From: Spirochaetales bacterium
Lineage (GTDB): Bacteria; Spirochaetota; Spirochaetia; DSM-2461
DNA length: 57,233 nucleotides
Assembly (NCBI GenBank): GCA_016936555.1
Contig: JAFGXR010000096.1
Location: forward strand, 1 to 57,233
Direction: 5' to 3'
In this document: positions 41,675-53,232 of the stretch, one piece after another
Numbering within the stretch: the first letter of the stretch is position 1
Layout of the letters: each line of letters begins with the position of its first letter
Translations under genes and position numbers: made by a program
The notes under the pieces: generated by a model
Told to the model about the DNA's origin: nothing
The model's input: the letters and a program-made list of their open reading frames with translations, nothing else
Database searches by the model: none

Positions 41675-41689
41675 TCAGGAGTGGTACAG

Positions 41690-42679
41690 TTGGTGGATAT
41701 GGTTATAGACAGAGAATCTACAGTTCCTGTCTACAGGCAGATAACCCAGAACATAACCCTTATGGTGAAACAGGGGAAGCTGAAGCCCGGCGATAAAGTG
41801 GTTCCCGAACGGGAACTGGCCGCCGCGCTGGACCTCTCCAGAGGAACGGTAAAGAAAGCCTACGGAGAGCTGGAGACCAACAATGTCCTGGAAGTTATCC
41901 AGGGCCGGGGGTCCTTTATCTCCCGGAATCAGGATATTCTGATTCAAAGCCGGAAAGACCGCGCCGTCCGCCTGATCGACAATACGATTACCGAACTCGA
42001 AGCCCTCAATTTCTCCCACAGGGAAATCACGACTTTTTTCCAGCTGATGCTTATGAACCGGGAAGAAAAAATCAACAGCTTCCACATAGCCGCAGTCGAC
42101 TGCAACAGCGAAGCTCTGACGGTTTTCGAAAAACAGCTTCAATACATCTCCGGGACGAGAATCAGCAAATACCTCCTGGACGATGTCGTGGCGAACAGCG
42201 ATCCCGAAAGACTCCTGTCCGGCTTTGATGTCATTCTGACGACATCGACTCACTACGGCGAACTATCTGCACTCTGCCCCTCTTTGAAGGAGAGGATTCT
42301 CCAGGCCGCCCTGACACTGGGACAGGAAACCATAATCGAACTGGCTTCAATCAAACCGGAAAGCCGGATCGGCATAATCTGCATCACCGAGCGTTTTCAC
42401 AATATCGTCAAAGAGAGAATGACCCTTTTCGGCCTGGCGACCGGCGATGTCTCCTATCTCTGCAACTGCCGGGGAAGCGATTTTCACAACTATCTGGAGA
42501 ACAAGGATGTTGTCATCCTTCCTTCCCAAATGTCGATCAGCGATAACTGGGATCTGACCGACGCGTTGGATAAATTCACAGCCCGCGGCGGCAGAGTTAT
42601 TATTTTTGATTATCAGATAGACCGGGGGTCTCTCATTTATATTGAGGAACAGATATCCCGTCGCATGGAGAACCTGTGA
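41690..42679 (+). CDS. GntR-family transcriptional regulator
   Basis: A 329-residue regulator. The winged helix (about 5-75) shows STVPVYRQITQNITLMVKQG then KLKPGDKVVPERELAAALDL and SRGTVKKAYGELETNNVLEV. The C-terminal 230 residues resemble a two-lobed effector domain, with FHIAAVDCNSEALTVFEKQL, VILTTSTHYGELSAL and RIGIICITERFHNIV, rather than the common UTRA or FCD domains. TTG at 41690 lies 8 bases after AGGAG and is my preferred start; GTG at 41693 and ATG at 41699 are alternatives. It stands just before the methylaspartate operon and likely controls it in response to glutamate or a product. Confidence 0.88.
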   Translation: MVDMVIDRESTVPVYRQITQNITLMVKQGKLKPGDKVVPERELAAALDLSRGTVKKAYGELETNNVLEVIQGRGSFISRNQDILIQSRKDRAVRLIDNTITELEALNFSHREITTFFQLMLMNREEKINSFHIAAVDCNSEALTVFEKQLQYISGTRISKYLLDDVVANSDPERLLSGFDVILTTSTHYGELSALCPSLKERILQAALTLGQETIIELASIKPESRIGIICITERFHNIVKERMTLFGLATGDVSYLCNCRGSDFHNYLENKDVVILPSQMSISDNWDLTDALDKFTARGGRVIIFDYQIDRGSLIYIEEQISRRMENL

Positions 42680-42757: not shown

Positions 42758-43168
42758 ATGTGTAAAAAAACAATTGTTCTGGGCGTTATCGGCTCGGACT
42801 GTCACGCCGTAGGGAACAAGATTCTCGACAAGTTCTATTCCGATGCCGGTTTCAATGTCATCAATCTGGGCGTCATGGTATCCCAGGATGAGTTTATCGA
42901 TTCGGCCATTGAGACCGGAGCCGAGGCGATTCTCGTATCCTCTCTTTACGGGCACGGAGAGATAGACTGTATGGGCTTCCGGGAGCGATGCACCGAAAGA
43001 GGCCTGGAGGATATTGTTCTCCATGTAGGCGGAAACCTTGTCGTGGGGAAAATGGACAAGGCCCGGATCGTCGAAAAATTCAAAGAGATGGGTTACGACA
43101 GAGTCTACACACCCGATGTGGATCTGCAGATCTGCCTGGAAGAATTGAGAGCCGATCTGAAATGCTGA
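42758..43168 (+). CDS. glmS: Glutamate mutase (methylaspartate mutase) S subunit
   Basis: A 136-residue cobalamin-binding subunit. The signature DxHxxG is at Asp14-His16-Gly19 (GSDCHAVGNKIL); His16 is the cobalt ligand. SLYGHGEIDCMGF and LHVGGNLVVGK are also typical of the B12-binding fold. With GlmE it rearranges L-glutamate to (2S,3S)-3-methylaspartate using adenosylcobalamin. An AAGGAG lies about 13 bases before the ATG. It opens the operon; its stop overlaps the GlmL start by seven bases. Confidence 0.95.
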   Translation: MCKKTIVLGVIGSDCHAVGNKILDKFYSDAGFNVINLGVMVSQDEFIDSAIETGAEAILVSSLYGHGEIDCMGFRERCTERGLEDIVLHVGGNLVVGKMDKARIVEKFKEMGYDRVYTPDVDLQICLEELRADLKC

Positions 43169-44532
43169 TTTCCATCGATATCGGTTCGACCTGGACGAAA
43201 GGGGCTCTTTTCACAGTCCGGGAAGGAAAACTTGTGGTGGAAAACAGAGAAACCACGGCAACGACCACCGATGACCTGTCTATCGGATTCAGGGAAATTC
43301 TAGGACGGCTCAGACTGACAGCCTACGGTGAGACTCCGGTCCTCTGTTCCTCTTCAGCCCACGGCGGGTTGAAGATAACCGCCATCGGAATCGTTCCCGA
43401 CCTGACTCTGGAATCGGCACGGCTGGCGGCTCTATCGGCCGGCGGAAAACTGACCAAAGCCTATTCCTACCGGCTCAACAGTACCGACATCAGGGAGATC
43501 GAAGCCTCTCAGCCCGATATCGTTCTTCTCACGGGAGGAACGGACGGCGGCAACAGAAGCTATATACTCCACAATGCCGAACTGCTGTCGAAATCGAATC
43601 TGGACTGCACGATTCTCTATGGGGGAAACCGCGACCTTCAGGATGATGTCAGAAATATCCTCATCCGGAAAAAGCTGCTTATAGCTGCAAACGTATTGCC
43701 CGATCTGAACAATCCCTCACCACAAGAGGCCCGGGATGTCATCCGGGAAACGTTTATGTCCACCATCATCCAGGGAAAGGGGCTTCAGTCGATCGTCGAG
43801 CTGACCGGTTCGGCTCCCGTCCCCACACCGGCGGCGGTTTTCGACTATGTGACTCATCTCGACAGGGAAAAGACCTTCGAAGGAGATTTCTCTTTTATCG
43901 ATATGGGCGGAGCCACAACCGATTACTACTCGGCCGTTTCACCTGTTTCGACCGATAAAGTTATCCGCAAGGGAATAAAGGAACCGAGGATCAAGCGCTC
44001 CGTCGAGGGTGACCTGGGAATGAGGGTCAGCGCCCTCTCCGCTATGGAATCGGACCGCATGACATTGGAAGCCGAAGCGGAATCCAGGGGACTCAATCTG
44101 GATGATTTCCTGGATTATCTGAAAAAAGTCAGCACTATGACAGAGTACATTCCCGTCGATGCGGAAGAGAAACGGTTTGACGCTCTGCTCGCCGGATTCT
44201 GCACAGCCAATGCGACGACACGTCACGGAGGAACGCGCAGGGAAATCTATACAACTTCCGGTTCGGCTTTTGTCGAAACGGGAAGAAACCTGAAAAATAT
44301 CAAAACCATTATCGGTACGGGAGGGTATCTGGCGGCGCTCGATGACGACCCCTTCCGGCACTACCCCGTACCGGCTGTAACCATAGAGGGAGAGGAGATT
44401 CTCAGTCCGGCGGAATACCGTTATTTCCGGGACCACCGCTATCTGATTCCCCTCCTGGCCAATGCGGCCCGGCTCTACCCTAAAGAGGCGGCGGCTTCAT
44501 TGAAACCGAATTTAACGGAAATAAAGGATTAA
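43162..44532 (+). CDS. glmL: GlmL/MutL, reactivator of glutamate mutase
   Basis: A 456-residue ATPase of the ASKHA (actin/Hsp70-like) fold. LISIDIGSTWTKGALFTVRE is the phosphate-1 loop, SFIDMGGATTDYYSAVSPV the phosphate-2 loop, and KTIIGTGGYLAALDDDPFRH the adenosine motif. The protein is thought to release damaged cobalamin from glutamate mutase, as the diol dehydratase reactivases do. I set the start at the ATG in 43162, which overlaps glmS; longer upstream frames have no coding quality. glmE begins directly after the stop codon. Confidence 0.93.
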   Translation: MLISIDIGSTWTKGALFTVREGKLVVENRETTATTTDDLSIGFREILGRLRLTAYGETPVLCSSSAHGGLKITAIGIVPDLTLESARLAALSAGGKLTKAYSYRLNSTDIREIEASQPDIVLLTGGTDGGNRSYILHNAELLSKSNLDCTILYGGNRDLQDDVRNILIRKKLLIAANVLPDLNNPSPQEARDVIRETFMSTIIQGKGLQSIVELTGSAPVPTPAAVFDYVTHLDREKTFEGDFSFIDMGGATTDYYSAVSPVSTDKVIRKGIKEPRIKRSVEGDLGMRVSALSAMESDRMTLEAEAESRGLNLDDFLDYLKKVSTMTEYIPVDAEEKRFDALLAGFCTANATTRHGGTRREIYTTSGSAFVETGRNLKNIKTIIGTGGYLAALDDDPFRHYPVPAVTIEGEEILSPAEYRYFRDHRYLIPLLANAARLYPKEAAASLKPNLTEIKD

Positions 44533-45981
44533 ATGGTGGAAATTCAAAACAAGAAAATCGACAAACAGGATTACCTGAATGGGCGGGAAGAGATTCTCGC
44601 AGCCTGGCCGACCGGTCAGGGTGTCTCCATCGAAGAGGGGGTAAAATTTCAGGAAAGCCTCCCGGAGTCGAAGAGATTCGCTTCGGTTCTGAATCAGGCG
44701 GTCAAAGAAAAAAGAGTGCTGATCCAGCCCAGGGCCGGTGTCGCCCTGGTGGATGAACATATAGAGCTTCTGAAATTTCTGGAAGAGGAGTCGGACCTCC
44801 TTCCCACGACGATCGATGCCTACACCAGGCTGAACCGTTACGACGAGGCCCAGAAGGGTATCGACAAATCGCGGGCAGCCGGCCATTCCCTCCTGAACGG
44901 CTTTCCGGCGGTCAACCACGGTATCGAATCGTGCCGGAGAATCATTGAGTCCATCAGCAAACCGGTGGAAATCCGCCACGGGACTCCCGACGCCAGGCTT
45001 CTGGCGGAGATTTCCTACGCCGCGGGATTCAACTCCTTCGAAGGGGGCGGAATTTCCTACAACATCCCTTACGCCAAGAACGTTCCCCTGGAAAAATCGA
45101 TCCGCGACTGGCAGTTTATCGACCGTCTGACCGGTATTTATCAGGAAGAGGGAATCACCATCAACAGAGAGCCTTTCGGCCCCCTGTCGGGAACTCTGGT
45201 TCCTCCTTTCGTTTCCCACTCCATCGCCATAATCGAAGGTCTTCTCGCTCTGGAGCAGGGCGTCAAATCGATCACCCTCGGTTACGGCCAGGCCGGTAAC
45301 ATGATCCAGGATATCGCGGCCATGCAGTCCCTGACAGAACTGGCCCATAAGTATTTCGGTGAGGCGGGATTCAAAGACTACGAGCTCTCCACGGTTCTCC
45401 ACCAGTGGATGGGCGGTTTCCCCGAAGACGAAGCCAGGGCCTTCTCGGTTATCGCCTGGGGAAGCGTCGTGGCCAATTTTGCCGGAGCCACCAAAGTTAT
45501 CGTGAAAACGCCTCATGAAGCGTCGGGCATCCCCACGAAGGAAGCCAACCTCCAGGGCCTGAAAGCGACGCGGCAGATGATCCAGATGACCCACGACCAG
45601 TGTTACTTCAACATCGCCGAACTGGCTTTGGAAAAAGAGATGATCCACCGGGAAGTGGACGCTATCATGGCTGCCGTTTTCGAAGCCGGAAAAGGTGATA
45701 TCGCCGTGGGCGCCGTCAAGGCTTTCGAAGCGGGGATCATCGATGTCCCCTTCGCACCGGCCGCCTGCAACTACGGAAAGATGCTGCCTGTCAGAGACAA
45801 TACGGGAGCGGTCCGCGTCTTCGAGACCGGCAATACGCCGCTGCCCTCCGATGTTCTGAATTATCACAAGGAAAAAATAAGAGAAAGAGCCGCCGTCGAG
45901 GAACGGGACCCCTGCTTCCAGATGGTTATAGACGACATTTACGCCATCAGCAAAGGGCGGCTTGTAGGGAGACCCAGATAA
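44533..45981 (+). CDS. glmE: Glutamate mutase (methylaspartate mutase) E subunit
   Basis: A 482-residue catalytic subunit with a TIM barrel that holds glutamate and the adenosyl radical. Conserved runs include IQPRAGVALVDEHIELLKFL, SRAAGHSLLNGFPAVNHGIE, IRHGTPDARLLAEISYAAGF, NSFEGGGISYNIPYAKNVPL and the substrate-binding TLGYGQAGNMIQDIAAMQSL. Length matches the family (about 483). Starts immediately after glmL and ends overlapping the mal ATG by one base. Confidence 0.96.
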   Translation: MVEIQNKKIDKQDYLNGREEILAAWPTGQGVSIEEGVKFQESLPESKRFASVLNQAVKEKRVLIQPRAGVALVDEHIELLKFLEEESDLLPTTIDAYTRLNRYDEAQKGIDKSRAAGHSLLNGFPAVNHGIESCRRIIESISKPVEIRHGTPDARLLAEISYAAGFNSFEGGGISYNIPYAKNVPLEKSIRDWQFIDRLTGIYQEEGITINREPFGPLSGTLVPPFVSHSIAIIEGLLALEQGVKSITLGYGQAGNMIQDIAAMQSLTELAHKYFGEAGFKDYELSTVLHQWMGGFPEDEARAFSVIAWGSVVANFAGATKVIVKTPHEASGIPTKEANLQGLKATRQMIQMTHDQCYFNIAELALEKEMIHREVDAIMAAVFEAGKGDIAVGAVKAFEAGIIDVPFAPAACNYGKMLPVRDNTGAVRVFETGNTPLPSDVLNYHKEKIRERAAVEERDPCFQMVIDDIYAISKGRLVGRPR

Positions 45982-47228
45982 TGAAAATTGTTAAAGCGAT
46001 ATTCTCGCCCGGTGTGACGGGCTTCTTTTTCGACGACCAGAAAGCCATCAAGGCGGGAGCGGAGCATGACGGTTTTATCTACCGCGGGGAACCGATGACA
46101 GAGGGATTCACGACGATCCGGATGACCGGGCAGTCCATTTCCGTTCAGCTGATCATGGAAAACGGTCAGATCGCCGTGGGCGACTGCGCCGCCGTCCAGT
46201 ACTCCGGCGCCGGCGGCCGCGACCCGCTCTTCCTGGCGGAAACCTATATCCCCTTTATAGAAGAGCATATCCGCCCCTGGCTGGAGGGACGGGACATTCA
46301 GTCCTTTAAAGAGGCCGCCGAAGAGTTCGATGTTCTGAAGGTCGACGGGGAAAGGCTCCATACGGCTATCCGCTACGGCGTCTCCCAGGCGCTTCTCGAT
46401 GCCGCGGCTATATCGGCGGGACTTTTGAAACAGGAAGTGGTCTGCCGCGATTACGATCTTCCGGTGGTGGCCGAGCCGGTGCCGCTCTTCGCCCAGTCGG
46501 GAGACGACCGGTACACCGCTGTCGACAAAATGATTATCAAGCAGGTCGATGTTCTGCCCCACGCCCTTATCAACAATATCGATACGAAACTGGGACGGAA
46601 GGGAGAGCTTCTCCTCGAATACGTCGGCTGGCTGAGAAACCGTGTGGAACAGCTCCGCGAAAACAGGGATTACAAACCGGATCTCCATATCGATGTCTAC
46701 GGAACCATCGGCATCATCTTCGACTACGATGCGGAACGCATGGCCGACTACTTTCTGGAACTGGAAAAAGCCGCGGGAGACCTGCAGCTCTATATCGAAG
46801 GCCCTATGGATATGGGTGAAAAAGCAAAACAGATCGAAGCGATGAAAGAGCTTCAGGACAAGCTCCATGAAAAAGGGTGCAAAGTCAAAACCGTCGCCGA
46901 CGAGTGGTGCAACACCTGGGAGGACATCAGAGACTTCACCGACGCGAAATGCTGCGATATGGTGCAGATCAAAACCCCCGACCTGGGAAGCATCCACAAT
47001 ATCGTGAAGAGCATCCTTTACTGCAAGGAGCACGGCATGGAAGCCTATCAGGGCGGGACCTGCAACGAAACCAATATCTCCGCCCGGACCTGCGTCCACG
47101 TCGGACTGGCGGCCCGCGCCGAGAGAATGCTGGTCAAACCGGGCATGGGATTTGACGAAGGGCTTACCATCGTGAAAAACGAAATGGAACGGACATTGGC
47201 CGTCCTGAAATACAAGGAGGCGAAATGA
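45981..47228 (+). CDS. mal: Methylaspartate ammonia-lyase
   Basis: A 415-residue enolase-superfamily enzyme removing ammonia from 3-methylaspartate to give mesaconate. VGDCAAVQYSGAGGRDPLFL is a typical N-terminal run. Metal ligands are recognisable in order: Asp in DLHIDVYGTIG, Glu in LYIEGPMD and Asp in TVADEWCN. The catalytic Lys is in VQIKTPDLGSIHNIVKSIL, and EAYQGGTCNETNISARTCVH closes the site. Length is as in Clostridium and Citrobacter enzymes (413). It overlaps both neighbours. Confidence 0.96.
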   Translation: MKIVKAIFSPGVTGFFFDDQKAIKAGAEHDGFIYRGEPMTEGFTTIRMTGQSISVQLIMENGQIAVGDCAAVQYSGAGGRDPLFLAETYIPFIEEHIRPWLEGRDIQSFKEAAEEFDVLKVDGERLHTAIRYGVSQALLDAAAISAGLLKQEVVCRDYDLPVVAEPVPLFAQSGDDRYTAVDKMIIKQVDVLPHALINNIDTKLGRKGELLLEYVGWLRNRVEQLRENRDYKPDLHIDVYGTIGIIFDYDAERMADYFLELEKAAGDLQLYIEGPMDMGEKAKQIEAMKELQDKLHEKGCKVKTVADEWCNTWEDIRDFTDAKCCDMVQIKTPDLGSIHNIVKSILYCKEHGMEAYQGGTCNETNISARTCVHVGLAARAERMLVKPGMGFDEGLTIVKNEMERTLAVLKYKEAK

Positions 47229-48577
47229 TGAAAGAGTTTGTCGTACTCTCCCCCACGGCCATTCTGGGATACGGATTCCCCGAGGAATCCTTCTACAGAG
47301 GGCTGGAGAAAAACCCCGACTTGATCGCCGTTGACGGCGGTTCGACCGACCCCGGCCCCCATTACCTCGGTTCGGGCAAATCCTTCACCGACCGGATAGG
47401 GGTTAAAAGAGACCTCCGCTATATGATCACCGAAGGGGTGAAACGGGGCATTCCCGTTGTCGTGGGTACCTCCGGCGGCTCCGGCGCCCGCCCCCACCTG
47501 GAGTGGACAAAAGAGATTGTCGAAGAGATTGCGAGTGAGAACAATCTCCATTTCAAAATGGGACTGATCTACTCGGATATTGATAAAGCCGTTGTCAAAG
47601 AGGCATGGAAAGCGGGAAAGATCCAGGCCCTGGACTATGTCCCGGAACTGGATGAACAGACCATCGAGGAATCAGAGAACATCGTCGCCCAGATCGGCGT
47701 GGAGCCGATGATCGAGGCTCTGGAAAAAGGCTGTCAGGTCATACTGGCGGGAAGAGCCTACGACCCGGCCTGTTTCGCCGCCCTTCCCATCAAAGAGGGA
47801 TACGATGAAGGCCTGGCCACCCATATGGGAAAAATCCTCGAATGCGCGGCCATCGCCTCGACGCCCGGTTCCGGATCGGACTGCGTTCTCGGTTTTCTCG
47901 GCGAAAACTACTTCCGCCTGGAAACGCTCAGCGACGAGAGAAGATTTACCAAGGAGTCGACGGCAGCCCATACGCTCTATGAAAAATCTGACCCCTATCA
48001 CCTGGTCGGCCCCGGCGGATCTCTGAACCTGGAGAAATGCCAGTTTATCGAACACCCCGAAAAAGGCGTCACCGTTAAGGGAAGCGTTTTTGAAAAATCA
48101 GAAAAATATACAGTCAAACTGGAAGCGGCCCGGAGAATCGGCTACCGCACCATCAGCATCGCCGGCACCAGGGACTCCATCCTGATCGGTCAGATCGATT
48201 CGGTTCTGGATAAAGTCAAAGCCCGGGTCAGCGATCTTCTGAAAAAGGAGAGCATGGAAGGCAAGGTCCATTTCCACGTTTACGGAAAGAACGGCGTTAT
48301 GGGATCGCTGGAGCCCGAAGAGAAGACCAGCCACGAAATCTGCATCGTCATCGACGTGGTGGCTCCGGTTCAGACCATGGCCGACACGATCTGCAGCATC
48401 ACCCGGTCCACCCTGCTCCACTACGGTTACGACGGGAGAATTTCCACGGCGGGCAATCTGGCCTTCCCCTTCTCCCCTTCCGATATCAAGGCGGGCGAAG
48501 TGTACAACTTCAGCCTCTATCACATTATGGAAATAGACAATCAGGACCTTTTTAAAGTGGAGGTACGGGACATATGA
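47225..48577 (+). CDS. AtuA-like (DUF1446) protein
   Basis: A 450-residue cytosolic protein of the AtuA/DUF1446 family, recognised by LIAVDGGSTDPGPHYLGSGK, VVGTSGGSGARPHLEWTKEI, VILAGRAYDPACFAALPIKE and the late VHFHVYGKNGVMGSLEPEEK. AtuA is named from acyclic terpene use in Pseudomonas, where its biochemical role is also unclear. Here it sits between mal and a DUF4387 gene with four-base overlaps on both sides (ATGA), which implies a step or accessory role in the methylaspartate route. The ATG at 47225 or the next one three bases on could start. Confidence 0.88.
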   Translation: MMKEFVVLSPTAILGYGFPEESFYRGLEKNPDLIAVDGGSTDPGPHYLGSGKSFTDRIGVKRDLRYMITEGVKRGIPVVVGTSGGSGARPHLEWTKEIVEEIASENNLHFKMGLIYSDIDKAVVKEAWKAGKIQALDYVPELDEQTIEESENIVAQIGVEPMIEALEKGCQVILAGRAYDPACFAALPIKEGYDEGLATHMGKILECAAIASTPGSGSDCVLGFLGENYFRLETLSDERRFTKESTAAHTLYEKSDPYHLVGPGGSLNLEKCQFIEHPEKGVTVKGSVFEKSEKYTVKLEAARRIGYRTISIAGTRDSILIGQIDSVLDKVKARVSDLLKKESMEGKVHFHVYGKNGVMGSLEPEEKTSHEICIVIDVVAPVQTMADTICSITRSTLLHYGYDGRISTAGNLAFPFSPSDIKAGEVYNFSLYHIMEIDNQDLFKVEVRDI

Positions 48578-48891
48578 AACAACCCATAACCGATCTGGCC
48601 CGGGTCATACGGTCGAAAAACGCCGGTCCCTACGAGCTGACCCTCGATATGATCTTTAAAACCAGTGAAATTTACGAAGCGATCAAGAAAAAACAGCTGA
48701 TTAATGCTGAAAAGATCGCGGAAATCTATAAAATAGAGAAAGAGATGATTAAGGGAGTGATCTATTTCGACCCCTCCCATGCCGTCAAAGTAACCATGAA
48801 ACGGGAAATTCCCTCGGGCGCTTTCGGCGACAGCGACATTTACGGGGCGCAGCAGCACGCGCCTCTGCTCAAACTGGAGTTCGATATCTAG
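48574..48891 (+). CDS. DUF4387 family protein
   Basis: A 105-residue cytosolic protein of the DUF4387 family: ITDLARVIRSKNAGPYELTL then DMIFKTSEIYEAIKKKQLIN and the C-terminal PSGAFGDSDIYGAQQHAPLL. In other genomes this small family usually accompanies, or is fused to, AtuA-like proteins, so it is probably a subunit of the same enzyme or complex. No function has been assigned. It overlaps the AtuA gene by four bases and the next gene by one. Confidence 0.88.
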   Translation: MKQPITDLARVIRSKNAGPYELTLDMIFKTSEIYEAIKKKQLINAEKIAEIYKIEKEMIKGVIYFDPSHAVKVTMKREIPSGAFGDSDIYGAQQHAPLLKLEFDI

Positions 48892-49838
48892 TGGAAAACT
48901 ATTCGACGCGGATGCTCAGGGAGAACCTCATTTTCTCCACCTATTACGCCCCCCGGGGACGCAACCGTCTCTACGCTCTGGGAAAGCTCCTTTCCCAGAG
49001 GTATATTTCCTCCCATGACCAGCTCATCGGCGTCATAGGCTCGGAGGGCGCGGGAAAATCCACGCTGATCAAAGCGCTTTTTCCCGGTCTGGAACTGACC
49101 AATGACGACGACGGGGTCAATGTCCGGCCGACACCTCTCTACGGATTCCGGGAGGACGACTTCTTCTCCGGCCATACGTTCCACATTGACTACCGCTACG
49201 AATCGGCTTTTCACCAGCAGTTCGAAATCGTCGAAGCTGTCAACAAAGCCATCAACAGCGGGCGCCGCGTCGTCATCGAGCATTTCGATCTCATCTATGA
49301 AGCCCTGGGCTACAACGCCCAGATCCTCTTCGGCATCGGCGAGGAAGTGATCGTCGCCCGTCCCAACGTTTTCGGCCCCTCGCCTCTGGCGATCAAAGAG
49401 GTCTCCCATAAAACCATCAAGTACAGACTGATGGCCCATTCAGCGGAAGATATTACCAGTATGGTTCTGGAACATGATTATAACTATAAAAATCCCATTC
49501 TCCATTCCGACGTGAAACACGGCTTTGTCATCAGTTTCGATGAGAAACCGGATATCGATATCCGGGAACTGGAAGCCAAGGTTCTGGATATCATCAGGAA
49601 GGATATCAAAATCAAAAACTCCCGGGAGCAGCATATCAAGATCGGCGATCACGAAATGTTCTGCACCGGCGTGCGGACCCATGTCAAATCATCCGGTCAG
49701 ATACAGGATTTCAAATTGAGAAAAGAGTTCACCTATGATCCCTATACAAAGGAATACCTCCTGGTGGGAAGAGTGGGCTCGAAAGAGGAAGCGGCGGGAT
49801 TCGAAAACATCCTGATGGAACCGGAGACGGAATTATGA
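48891..49838 (+). CDS. P-loop protein of glutamate-mutase operons
   Basis: A 315-residue protein starting with GTG on the last base of the preceding stop codon. Walker A is IGSEGAGKSTLIKALFPGLE, a Walker B-like strand is RRVVIEHFDLIYEAL, and a region with LMAHSAEDITSMVLEHDYNY and GDHEMFCTGVRTHVKSSGQI resembles the second additional (editing-like) domain of alanyl-tRNA synthetase. The full protein is thus a kinase-like NTPase fused to that domain. Its role is unknown. It may energise or repair the cobalamin enzyme or a CoA-type intermediate, which is inference. It overlaps fumarase alpha by four bases. Confidence 0.75.
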   Translation: MENYSTRMLRENLIFSTYYAPRGRNRLYALGKLLSQRYISSHDQLIGVIGSEGAGKSTLIKALFPGLELTNDDDGVNVRPTPLYGFREDDFFSGHTFHIDYRYESAFHQQFEIVEAVNKAINSGRRVVIEHFDLIYEALGYNAQILFGIGEEVIVARPNVFGPSPLAIKEVSHKTIKYRLMAHSAEDITSMVLEHDYNYKNPILHSDVKHGFVISFDEKPDIDIRELEAKVLDIIRKDIKIKNSREQHIKIGDHEMFCTGVRTHVKSSGQIQDFKLRKEFTYDPYTKEYLLVGRVGSKEEAAGFENILMEPETEL

Positions 49839-50689
49839 AACATATCATCGAAAGAGCGCAAATCTACCATGCCCTGAAAGCGGGCATCAAAGAGACGGGC
49901 GTCGTCCTCCCCGGCGATGTCAAAAGGGCCCTGCATCAGGCCATTGAAAAAGAGACGGGACCGGCGGGAAAAGTTCTCCGCTTCATCGCGGAGAATCTCG
50001 AATCGGCTGAACGGGAAAATATGCCCATGTGCCAGGATACGGGAATGGTCGTCGCCTTCGTGGAGATGGGCGATAAGGTTGAGATCAAAGACGCTTTTAT
50101 CGACGATATCATCCACGATGCCATAGCCGATGCCTATGAGGAGGGTTTTTTCCGCAAATCCGTAGTGGAAGACCCTCTCAACGGGCGGAAAAACACGGGA
50201 AACAATCTCCCGGCAGTCATACATCATGAACTGAAAAAAGGTTCCGATCTCAAAATCAGCCTTATGCTCAAAGGGTTCGGAAGCGAAAACTGCTCCCGAC
50301 TGGCCATGCTGAAGCCTACGGCGGGCCGTGAAGAGGTTATCGAATCCATCGCCAAAATTGTCGTGGAAGCGGGGGGCTCCCCCTGCCCGCCCACCATACT
50401 GGGGATCGGTATCGGCGGAACCATGGACTACGCGGCGAAGCTCTCCAAAAAAGCATTGATCCGGGAACTGGACGACAGCCATCCCGATCCCTGGTATGCG
50501 CAGCTGGAAGATGATATTCTGAAAAGAGTCAACGAGCTGGGAATCGGCGGCGGCGGACTGGGCGGCGATATAACCACCCTGGCCGTAAAGGTTGAAAAAT
50601 TCCCGACCCATATCGCCGGACTCCCCGTGGCGGTAACGGTGAACTGCTGGGCTGACAGGAAAACGATTGTGGAGTTAAAAGGAAAGTAA
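49835..50689 (+). CDS. Class I fumarase/mesaconase, alpha (N-terminal) subunit
   Basis: A 284-residue iron-sulfur subunit of a two-subunit fumarate hydratase-type enzyme. Three cluster cysteines are visible: ENMPMCQDTGMVVAF, FGSENCSRLAMLKP and EAGGSPCPPTILGIGIGG. The family also contains mesaconases that hydrate mesaconate to (S)-citramalate; the location after mal favours that substrate. It overlaps the P-loop gene. The partner beta subunit starts 382 bases downstream instead of adjacent, because a CcdAB-type module lies in between on the other strand. Confidence 0.93.
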   Translation: MKHIIERAQIYHALKAGIKETGVVLPGDVKRALHQAIEKETGPAGKVLRFIAENLESAERENMPMCQDTGMVVAFVEMGDKVEIKDAFIDDIIHDAIADAYEEGFFRKSVVEDPLNGRKNTGNNLPAVIHHELKKGSDLKISLMLKGFGSENCSRLAMLKPTAGREEVIESIAKIVVEAGGSPCPPTILGIGIGGTMDYAAKLSKKALIRELDDSHPDPWYAQLEDDILKRVNELGIGGGGLGGDITTLAVKVEKFPTHIAGLPVAVTVNCWADRKTIVELKGK

Positions 50690-50690
50690 G

Positions 50691-50768
50691 ATTAAAATCC
50701 TGTAAATCGAGAAGGAGAGGTGTTTCCCCTGATGATGTTCCTTTGTTTGTGTAGAGGTGAAACTGCAT
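50691..50768 (-). pseudogene. CcdB toxin remnant, N-terminal fragment only
   Basis: Reading minus from the ATG that overlaps the CcdA stop (TAATG) gives MQFHLYTNKGTSSGETPLLL then DLQDFN, the standard beginning of CcdB-type gyrase toxins. After about 26 codons the frame runs into the antisense of fumarase alpha and no longer resembles the family. CcdB is normally about 100 residues, so about three quarters is gone. The antitoxin remains. Confidence 0.72.
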
Positions 50769-50992
50769 TAAAAAGTTCTCATATCTTCACTGAAGACACC
50801 TGTCTTATCAATTTGCTGATTGTATTTATCAATGGCCTCTTTATTCTCTTTTTCCCAGGCTTTTTCTTTTTCCTCAGCCAGTCTGACTCTCAAGGCTCCT
50901 TCAGCAACAGCAGAAATCGAAATATTCATATTTCTGGCTTCAGAGAGCAATTCGCTATCAATGCTCACATTTGTCCTCGTCTTCATATACAT
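50768..50992 (-). CDS. CcdA-family antitoxin
   Basis: A 74-residue antitoxin: N-terminal ribbon-helix-helix (TRTNVSIDSELLSEARNMNI then SISAVAEGALRVRLAEEKEK) that binds DNA, and a C-terminal tail (AIDKYNQQIDKTGVFSEDMR) that wraps the toxin. It is on the strand opposite to the fermentation operon. The Met at 50986 is an equally good start, since the likely -10 (TATAAT, 50995-51000) leaves little or no leader. The toxin gene following it is truncated, so the antitoxin is an orphan and could act only as a local repressor. Confidence 0.82.
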   Translation of the reverse strand: MYMKTRTNVSIDSELLSEARNMNISISAVAEGALRVRLAEEKEKAWEKENKEAIDKYNQQIDKTGVFSEDMRTF

Positions 50993-51071: not shown

Positions 51072-51590
51072 ATGAAAGTAACACTGCCCCTAACAGATAC
51101 TGATATCGCAAAGATGAAAGCGGGAGACGAAGTCTACCTGACAGGGACCATTTTCAGCGCCCGTGACCAGGCCCACAAAAGGCTCTTTGAACTGCTGAAA
51201 AAGGGGGAGGATTTTCCCGTGGACCTTAAAGGGCAGACCGTCTTTTATATGGGTCCCGCCCCCACTCCCGACGGAAAGATCATCGGTTCCTGCGGCCCCA
51301 CTACAGCGTACCGCATGGATCCTTTCGCCCCGGCCCTGATGGATTACGGACTGAAAGGGATGATAGGGAAAGGCCCCCGGTCGAAGGAAGTGGCCGATTC
51401 GGTCGTCCGCAACAAAGGGGTGTATTTCTACGCCTACGGCGGATGCGGCGCTCTCTATGCCGAAAAAATCAAAGCCAATGAACTGGCGGCTTTCGGCGAT
51501 CTGGGACCCGAAGCGATCTACAGGCTGGAAGTGGAAGACTTTCCCGTTGTCGTGGCCATAGATTCGGAAGGCGGCAATATCTACGGCTGA
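51072..51590 (+). CDS. Class I fumarase/mesaconase, beta (C-terminal) subunit
   Basis: A 172-residue subunit forming the swivelling domain of the two-subunit hydratase. LTGTIFSARDQAHKRLFELL, FYMGPAPTPDGKIIGSCGPT, TAYRMDPFAPALMDYGLKGM and IGKGPRSKEV are all hallmark runs. I set the start at ATG 51072, preceded by AAGGA; the longer upstream frame runs through the CcdA region and is not coding. The gap to the alpha subunit is unusual: these genes normally overlap or adjoin. Confidence 0.93.
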   Translation: MKVTLPLTDTDIAKMKAGDEVYLTGTIFSARDQAHKRLFELLKKGEDFPVDLKGQTVFYMGPAPTPDGKIIGSCGPTTAYRMDPFAPALMDYGLKGMIGKGPRSKEVADSVVRNKGVYFYAYGGCGALYAEKIKANELAAFGDLGPEAIYRLEVEDFPVVVAIDSEGGNIYG

Positions 51591-51736: not shown

Positions 51737-51958
51737 ATGTTAAACCAGGGACTGACCCTGACCTTGGCCGGCATGGCCTTTGTCTTTAGCTTTCTGATCC
51801 TCTTAGTGGTCGTTATGACTCTGAGTTCCAGAATCATAATGCGCTTTTTTCCGGAAACAGCGCCTGTCCCCGTTCCGGAACGAAGAGCCAAACCGGACAT
51901 TGCTCTAGCCGTGGCGATTGCGGCCGCCAGGGCTAAAAAGGACGGCAGAATCCGATGA
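51737..51958 (+). CDS. oadG: OadG-type gamma subunit of a sodium-pumping decarboxylase
   Basis: A 73-residue small membrane protein. It has one membrane helix near the N-terminus ([20 protein letters not shown]) and a short cytoplasmic tail rich in Pro and Ala ([20 protein letters not shown]), as OadG/MmdD-like subunits have. It assembles with the beta subunit and recruits the biotin-bearing alpha part. Its stop codon overlaps the oadB ATG by four bases. The alpha subunit is missing nearby. Confidence 0.85.
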
Positions 51959-53232
51959 GAGAAGATCTGATCCAATCCATAAAGGAACTCTGGTTCTCCA
52001 CAGGCCTATACGGCTTTCTGCAGGAAGGCGGTTCGGGCAATCTCATTATGATCGCCGTGGGAATCCTCCTCCTCTACCTGGCCGTCAGGAAAGGTTTTGA
52101 ACCGCTGCTTCTCATTCCCATCGGCTTCGGCGCCATCCTCTCCAACATCCCCTTCGCGGAAATCGCCGGTCAGGCGACCTATTTTCTCAGCGATGGCGGT
52201 GAAGTCATATACAACAAAGAAGCCCACAGCATTATCGAATCCTTCGGAGGCTTCATCGGGCAGTTTTACAACATAGGCGTGGCGAGCGGGCTTTTTCCCC
52301 TGTTGATCTTTATGGGAGTGGGAGCCATGACCGATTTCGGCCCCCTTCTGGCCAACCCGAGGACCCTTCTTCTCGGAGCGGCCGCCCAGTTCGGAATTTT
52401 CATAGCTCTACTGGGAACGGTTGCCCTGGAGCTGATTCCCGGTTTCAGTTTCGTCTCTTCCGCTGAAGGAGACACCCTGGCCCGGTCCATCCTCCATGTG
52501 GCCGGTTCGATCGGAATCATCGGAGGGGCCGACGGCCCTACAGCCATTTTCACAGCATCCAGGTTGGCGCCTGCTTATCTCGGCCCCATAGCGGTGGCCG
52601 CTTACAGCTATATGGCATTGGTGCCTATCATCCAGCCGCCCATCATGAAAGCGCTCACAACTCCTGAAGAACGACGGATAAAAATGGAACAGCTCAGAGA
52701 TGTGAGCAAAAGGGAGAAAATCGTTTTTCCTCTGATCGTGTTATCGCTCTGCATCCTTCTACTGCCCAGCGCCACCCCGCTGGTCGGCATGCTTATGTTC
52801 GGCAATTTATTGAAAGAGAGCCTTGTGACCGACAGGCTGTCCGAAACGGCTCAGAACGCGCTTATGAATACCGTGACCATAATGCTCGGCCTTTCGGTCG
52901 GTTCCAAAATGCAGGCTGCGGTCTTTCTGAACGCCACCACTCTGGGAATCCTGCTTCTCGGCCTGACGGCTTTTGCCATCGGAACAGCTTCCGGCGTTCT
53001 TCTTGCGAAACTGATGAACAGATTCAGCAAAAGACCTATCAATCCCCTCATAGGAGCCGCGGGAGTGTCTGCCGTGCCCATGGCGGCCCGGGTGGTCAAT
53101 AAAGTGGGGCTTGAAGAGAACCCGGGGAACTTTCTGCTCATGCATGCCATGGGTCCCAACGTGGCGGGCGTCGTGGGGTCCGCCGTAGCGGCGGGCGTGC
53201 TGCTGGCGCTGGTCCCCGTCCTGGGAGGCTGA
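51955..53232 (+). CDS. oadB: OadB-type beta subunit, sodium-translocating decarboxylase
   Basis: A 425-residue polytopic membrane protein that couples decarboxylation of carboxybiotin to sodium export. The key region [20 protein letters not shown] holds the essential Asp and a conserved GGADGPT turn. [20 protein letters not shown] followed by [20 protein letters not shown] is the second half motif. Family members are shared among oxaloacetate, methylmalonyl-CoA and glutaconyl-CoA decarboxylases; the substrate depends on the alpha subunit. Context with mesaconate/citramalate conversion suggests pyruvate-oxaloacetate linkage, which is inference. Confidence 0.93.

Follow-up and report, generated by a model that had tools for sequence, protein, structure and literature searches.

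A contig of 57,233 nucleotides from a Spirochaetales bacterium (JAFGXR010000096.1, assembly GCA_016936555.1; the whole stretch is called the window here) carries a methylaspartate operon with two adjacent genes, one for an AtuA-family protein (47225-48577) and one for a DUF4387 protein (48574-48891). We predict with high confidence that these genes encode subunits A and B, respectively, of a citramalate lyase that has no relation to the classical CitDEF enzyme, because the two proteins are homologous over their full length to a solved citramalate lyase, stand in a fitting operon context, and replace CitDEF, and are replaced by it, across bacteria.

When both proteins were compared with the sequences of solved structures, PDB entries 9erq and 9evf were the one strong answer. 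AtuA residues 2-442 matched chain A of the two entries, deposited as 'Citramalate lyase, subunit A (cmlA)' (E 1.4e-181), and DUF4387 residues 1-104 matched 9erq_B, 'subunit B (cmlB)', itself a DUF4387 protein (E 3.4e-35). The AlphaFold model of AtuA (pLDDT 87.8) has the same fold as 9evf_A (TM 0.91, Z 46.8, 443 residues aligned, 59-60% identity); besides 9evf, the fold search returned mainly ferredoxin-like matches to residues 304-438. Invariant residues are spread along the whole of AtuA and DUF4387, including RSKN and YGxQQHxPL in the latter, which would fit a functional contribution from each chain. Phylogenetic analysis placed the window's AtuA in a clade (support 100/99) with proteins of methylaspartate operons, that of E. 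coli included, and the solved CmlA is close, not identical, to the E. coli protein read here. The A and B genes are adjacent and overlapping in the window, in a methylaspartate context as in E. coli, whereas the E. coli operon has a one-chain FumD hydratase in place of the two-gene MesAB, and a P-loop gene follows DUF4387 directly in the window, unlike CmlAB. The AtuA of acyclic terpene utilisation belongs to the same Pfam family (PF07287); however, it comes from a different operon, and the window's operon has no terpene genes and a separate DUF4387 subunit.

The operon, together with the regulator that precedes it, reads as follows:

41681-42679, plus strand: GntR-family regulator (PF00392, E 1.9e-14), preceding the operon and found in the same position in many related loci
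42758-43168, plus strand: glmS, glutamate mutase small subunit (TIGR01501, 205 bits)
43162-44532, plus strand: glmL, glutamate mutase accessory protein, start at 43162 (NF040745, 491.6 bits)
44533-45981, plus strand: glmE, glutamate mutase large subunit (TIGR01503, 751 bits)
45981-47228, plus strand: mal, methylaspartate ammonia-lyase (TIGR01502, 585 bits)
47225-48577, plus strand: AtuA-family protein of 450 aa, predicted citramalate lyase subunit A, CmlA-like (PF07287, E 1e-18; PDB 9erq_A/9evf_A)
48574-48891, plus strand: DUF4387 protein of 105 aa, predicted citramalate lyase subunit B, CmlB-like (PF14330, E 3.5e-39; PDB 9erq_B)
48891-49838, plus strand: P-loop protein of 315 aa with a GTG start (AlphaFold model, fold matches, retention in methylaspartate operons)
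49835-50689, plus strand: mesA, class I hydratase alpha subunit (mesaconase/fumarase alpha), probable mesaconase (PF05681, E 1.8e-97; NF004885)
51072-51590, plus strand: mesB, class I hydratase beta subunit, probable mesaconase, with an in-frame ATG at 51072 (PF05683, E 6.7e-54)

Family profiles thus place the (S)-citramalate-making genes glmSLE, mal and mesAB in one operon with AtuA-DUF4387, and this is the single occurrence of AtuA in the genome. The genes are tightly packed, with overlaps of 4 bases (mal/AtuA), 4 bases (AtuA/DUF4387), 1 base (DUF4387/P-loop) and 4 bases (P-loop/mesA), bearing out the 1-4 bases given in a preliminary description made from the sequence of the window. No CitDEF, acyl carrier protein, ligase or prosthetic-group genes were found in the operon. 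Because AtuA-DUF4387 supplies the citramalate lyase step, the route from glutamate through methylaspartate, mesaconate and citramalate to pyruvate and acetate is, on these gene assignments, fully encoded in the window. The preliminary description had held that citramalate lyase is missing locally, which is wrong in substance, and that AtuA-DUF4387 could carry out a novel step from mesaconate or citramalate. The homology to citramalate lyase upholds the action on a C5 intermediate of the pathway; the novelty has lapsed, since 9evf was released on 2025-10-08.

We then consider how the pair is distributed relative to CitDEF. The P-loop family was scanned in one genome per species, yielding 80 loci that were scored for their neighbours. 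AtuA occurred in 57 of these loci, CitF in six, and both together in none (p = 5.6e-7, a value that overstates the number of independent events, as the CitF cases come from few lineages). The CitF loci, which belong to Pelosinus, Megamonas and a further Bacillota genome, show the order mal-Ploop-citD-citE-citF-citC, followed by mesA-mesB where the contig allows, and elsewhere in the survey the typical order is mal-AtuA-DUF4387-Ploop-mesA-mesB. Classical CitDEF therefore takes the same place in the operon and the same step in the pathway as AtuA-DUF4387, although the proteins are unrelated. Likewise, the methylaspartate genes of Peptoclostridium acidaminophilum adjoin citCDEFX without AtuA, and Prevotella nigrescens and E. 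coli have mal-AtuA-DUF4387. The order mal-AtuA-DUF4387-P-loop recurs in many phyla and hence is not due to chance. The preliminary description would have abandoned its proposal had a classical lyase been encoded elsewhere and AtuA-DUF4387 been found in unrelated contexts only; the second half of this does not hold, as mal or glmE accompanies the pair in 52 surveyed loci.

A similar picture was seen among 296 genomes of the window's phylum, 15 with a true mal and 281 without. A close DUF4387 was present in nine of the 15 mal-positive genomes, and the other six all have CitF. Three (G005, G044 and G194) carry DUF4387 and lack CitF, one of them being a single-contig genome listed as 100% complete. 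Taken alone, the genome-level two-by-two test was not significant (p = 0.23).

As the preliminary description had proposed, the genome was checked for a citramalate lyase outside the operon, and a citC-citD-citE-citF-citG cluster was found on another contig (C39, L004 8377-16305), adjoining a tripartite tricarboxylate transporter. Its CitF is 62% identical to that of E. coli citrate lyase and 52-56% identical to CitF of methylaspartate operons; judged from these sequences, it is most likely a citrate lyase in a citrate fermentation cluster. The full citDEFGC cluster invites the reading that CitDEF is the real citramalate lyase and that AtuA-DUF4387 catalyses a different reaction, for example the isomerisation or activation of mesaconate or citramalate, which we regard as highly improbable given the affinity of this CitF to citrate lyase, the neighbouring transporter, the three mal-positive, DUF4387-positive genomes without any CitF, and the solved homologues named citramalate lyase, one crystallised with pyruvate.

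Returning to AtuA-DUF4387 as the citramalate lyase, the deposited title of 9evf, 'Citramalate lyase - ADP - pyruvate complex', hints at how the pair might work. From the presence of ADP and pyruvate in the crystal of this homologue, we infer that ATP would activate a carboxylate of citramalate as citramalyl phosphate, and that retro-aldol cleavage would then give pyruvate and acetyl phosphate, or pyruvate with ATP-coupled release of acetate. The acyl phosphate would stand in for the acetyl-thioester that CitDEF relies on, making both the carrier CitD and the proteins that produce it (CitC, CitX and CitG) dispensable. Provided that the lyase assignment is right, we lean towards such a nucleotide (acyl-phosphate) mechanism. 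The same citramalate lyase could serve E. coli, since its operon contains AtuA-DUF4387. According to work from 2015 (PMC4682846), that operon makes citramalate, no citramalate lyase activity was detected in E. coli cells whose citrate lyase activity was high, and what becomes of citramalate in such strains was unclear.

Several observations weigh against the citramalate lyase assignment and its proposed chemistry. Our literature search for DUF4387, CmlAB, 9erq and 9evf found no paper, and the reaction therefore rests on the names given by the depositors; AtuA appeared beside methylaspartate ammonia-lyase in one expression table only. ADP in a crystal is no proof of ATP consumption, and it is named by the title of 9evf only. 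The citDEF genes on contig C39 could in principle contribute, and the exclusion between the two lyase types reflects few independent events. Finally, AtuA-DUF4387 pairs also occur outside methylaspartate operons; the family is thus not confined to citramalate, and its farther members are only 34-44% identical. Some pairs lie next to fumarase (Klebsiella plasmids, Neorhizobium), and others next to tricarboxylate transport genes or flavin oxidoreductases. Members of the wider family are probably lyases of related hydroxyacids.

One such pair is encoded on a Klebsiella conjugative plasmid (L023 8986-17045) together with aldehyde/alcohol dehydrogenases and fumarate hydratase, and AtuA of the same identity is present on about a dozen Klebsiella plasmids. 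This cluster is probably another hydroxyacid degradation route.

The third gene of the set encodes the P-loop protein, whose AlphaFold model (pLDDT 89.8) joins a TsaE-like ATPase (residues ~11-163) to an AlaX/ThrRS editing-like (SAD) domain (~174-302). The combination of an NTPase and a SAD part, suggested in the preliminary description, is weak by sequence and clear in the predicted fold. The N-terminal part matched TsaE/YjeE/YdiB chains (Z 9.7-10.7) and the C-terminal part matched AlaX/AlaRS/ThrRS editing domains (Z 12-14.7), whereas the Pfam scores for TsaE (PF02367, 14.3 bits) and tRNA_SAD (PF07973, 16.9 bits, E 0.0064) were below the gathering scores of 26.6 and 24, such that by this measure the protein is in neither family. 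Searched against PDB sequences, the family profile retrieved chiefly Walker-A matches to ABC proteins. Invariant across 44 P-loop sequences are G47xxG50xxG53xGKS, H183, H205, C258 and H264. When the protein is aligned with AlaRS and ThrRS from the same genome, C258 and H264 (CysX5His) fall near the zinc-site Cys/His with a two-residue insertion; the second His of HxxxH was not found in this alignment. The protein therefore resembles TsaE in fold but is fused to an editing-like domain, and it resembles the editing domains in fold and in the retained Cys/His pair but does not have an intact HxxxH.

Within the window's phylum, the P-loop gene was present in 8 of the 15 mal-positive genomes and in none of the 281 mal-negative ones (Fisher P = 4.8e-12, relatedness ignored), a count that leaves aside six matches with E above 1e-4, all short hits to the Walker-A region. 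Among 17 genomes whose P-loop locus lacks a complete local pathway, mal was found in 13 and mal or glmE in 15; the other two are draft genomes with the P-loop gene and neither mal nor glmE. The gene lies immediately 5' of mesA in 42 of the 80 surveyed loci and is followed by citD in six. It is retained in CitDEF operons without AtuA, is absent from the AtuA operons of E. coli, and lies apart from glm and mal in Desulfosporosinus and in one spirochaete. Haloarchaea have glutamate mutase and methylaspartate ammonia-lyase and use a different route for mesaconate. We show that the P-loop protein is linked to the methylaspartate pathway at the genome level and is not tied to the type of lyase. We interpret it as an accessory factor of methylaspartate-pathway genomes rather than as a subunit of the lyase or a chaperone dedicated to it.

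In three Desulfosporosinus loci (L096, L101 and L104), all from genomes that have mal, the P-loop gene lies upstream of RNase PH-like and RdgB-type NTPase-like genes (named by eye).

Candidate roles for the P-loop protein are speculative, and two of them are the most testable. As a first, tentative possibility, the protein could use ATP to maintain glutamate mutase or the Fe-S mesaconase, or to deliver a cofactor to one of these enzymes. The ATPase domain, the link to glmE and mal across genomes, and the frequent position directly upstream of mesA speak for such a role, but glutamate mutase is already served by GlmL, citD rather than mesA follows the gene in six loci, the gene stands apart from glm-mal in Desulfosporosinus and one spirochaete, and other mal-positive genomes do without it.

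The second, which we consider unlikely, is quality control of methylaspartyl-tRNA, in which the TsaE-like ATPase would drive or gate the editing-like domain as it clears 3-methylaspartate from mischarged tRNA. This aspartate look-alike is made in bulk by the methylaspartate pathway, TsaE is another tRNA-handling ATPase, and within the AlaX/AlaRS/ThrRS editing-type fold one His is invariant and a CysX5His corresponds to the Cys/His pair that binds zinc. The co-occurrence with mal or glmE and the retention of the gene with either lyase type are also consistent with a guard of translation. The broken HxxxH zinc motif argues against it, as do the absence of the gene from the E. coli operon and some other mal-positive genomes and its presence in the two draft genomes without mal or glmE.

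Two further roles fared worse. The preliminary description had seen in the P-loop protein a cofactor chaperone; as a partner of AtuA this is unsupported and was ruled out, since CitDEF operons without AtuA keep the gene and the AtuA-bearing operons of E. coli lack it. An obligate partnership with mesaconase is weakened by the separate location of the gene in Desulfosporosinus and one spirochaete.

Other features were observed around the hydratase genes. A CcdA-type antitoxin open reading frame (50768-50992, minus strand, PF07362, E 5e-24) splits mesA from mesB, subunit genes that are adjacent in many relatives, and no CcdB toxin gene was seen adjoining it. Directly after mesB, sodium-pumping decarboxylase gamma (51737-51958) and beta (51955-53232) subunits are encoded on the plus strand.

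Taken as the lyase, AtuA-DUF4387 supplies a step that was lacking from the methylaspartate pathway in many anaerobes and in enterobacteria, where the fate of citramalate was still open in 2015 (PMC4682846). In a methylaspartate context, 'acyclic terpene utilization AtuA', with DUF4387, is then a misleading annotation. The question of AtuA-DUF4387 is essentially answered by the 2025 structure, and the remaining novelty is the accessory protein: our analysis singles out a widespread, uncharacterised P-loop protein that closely tracks the methylaspartate pathway. Should it guard translation, it would be a new kind of factor, a pathway-linked TsaE-like ATPase fused to a tRNA-editing domain in glutamate-fermenting bacteria.

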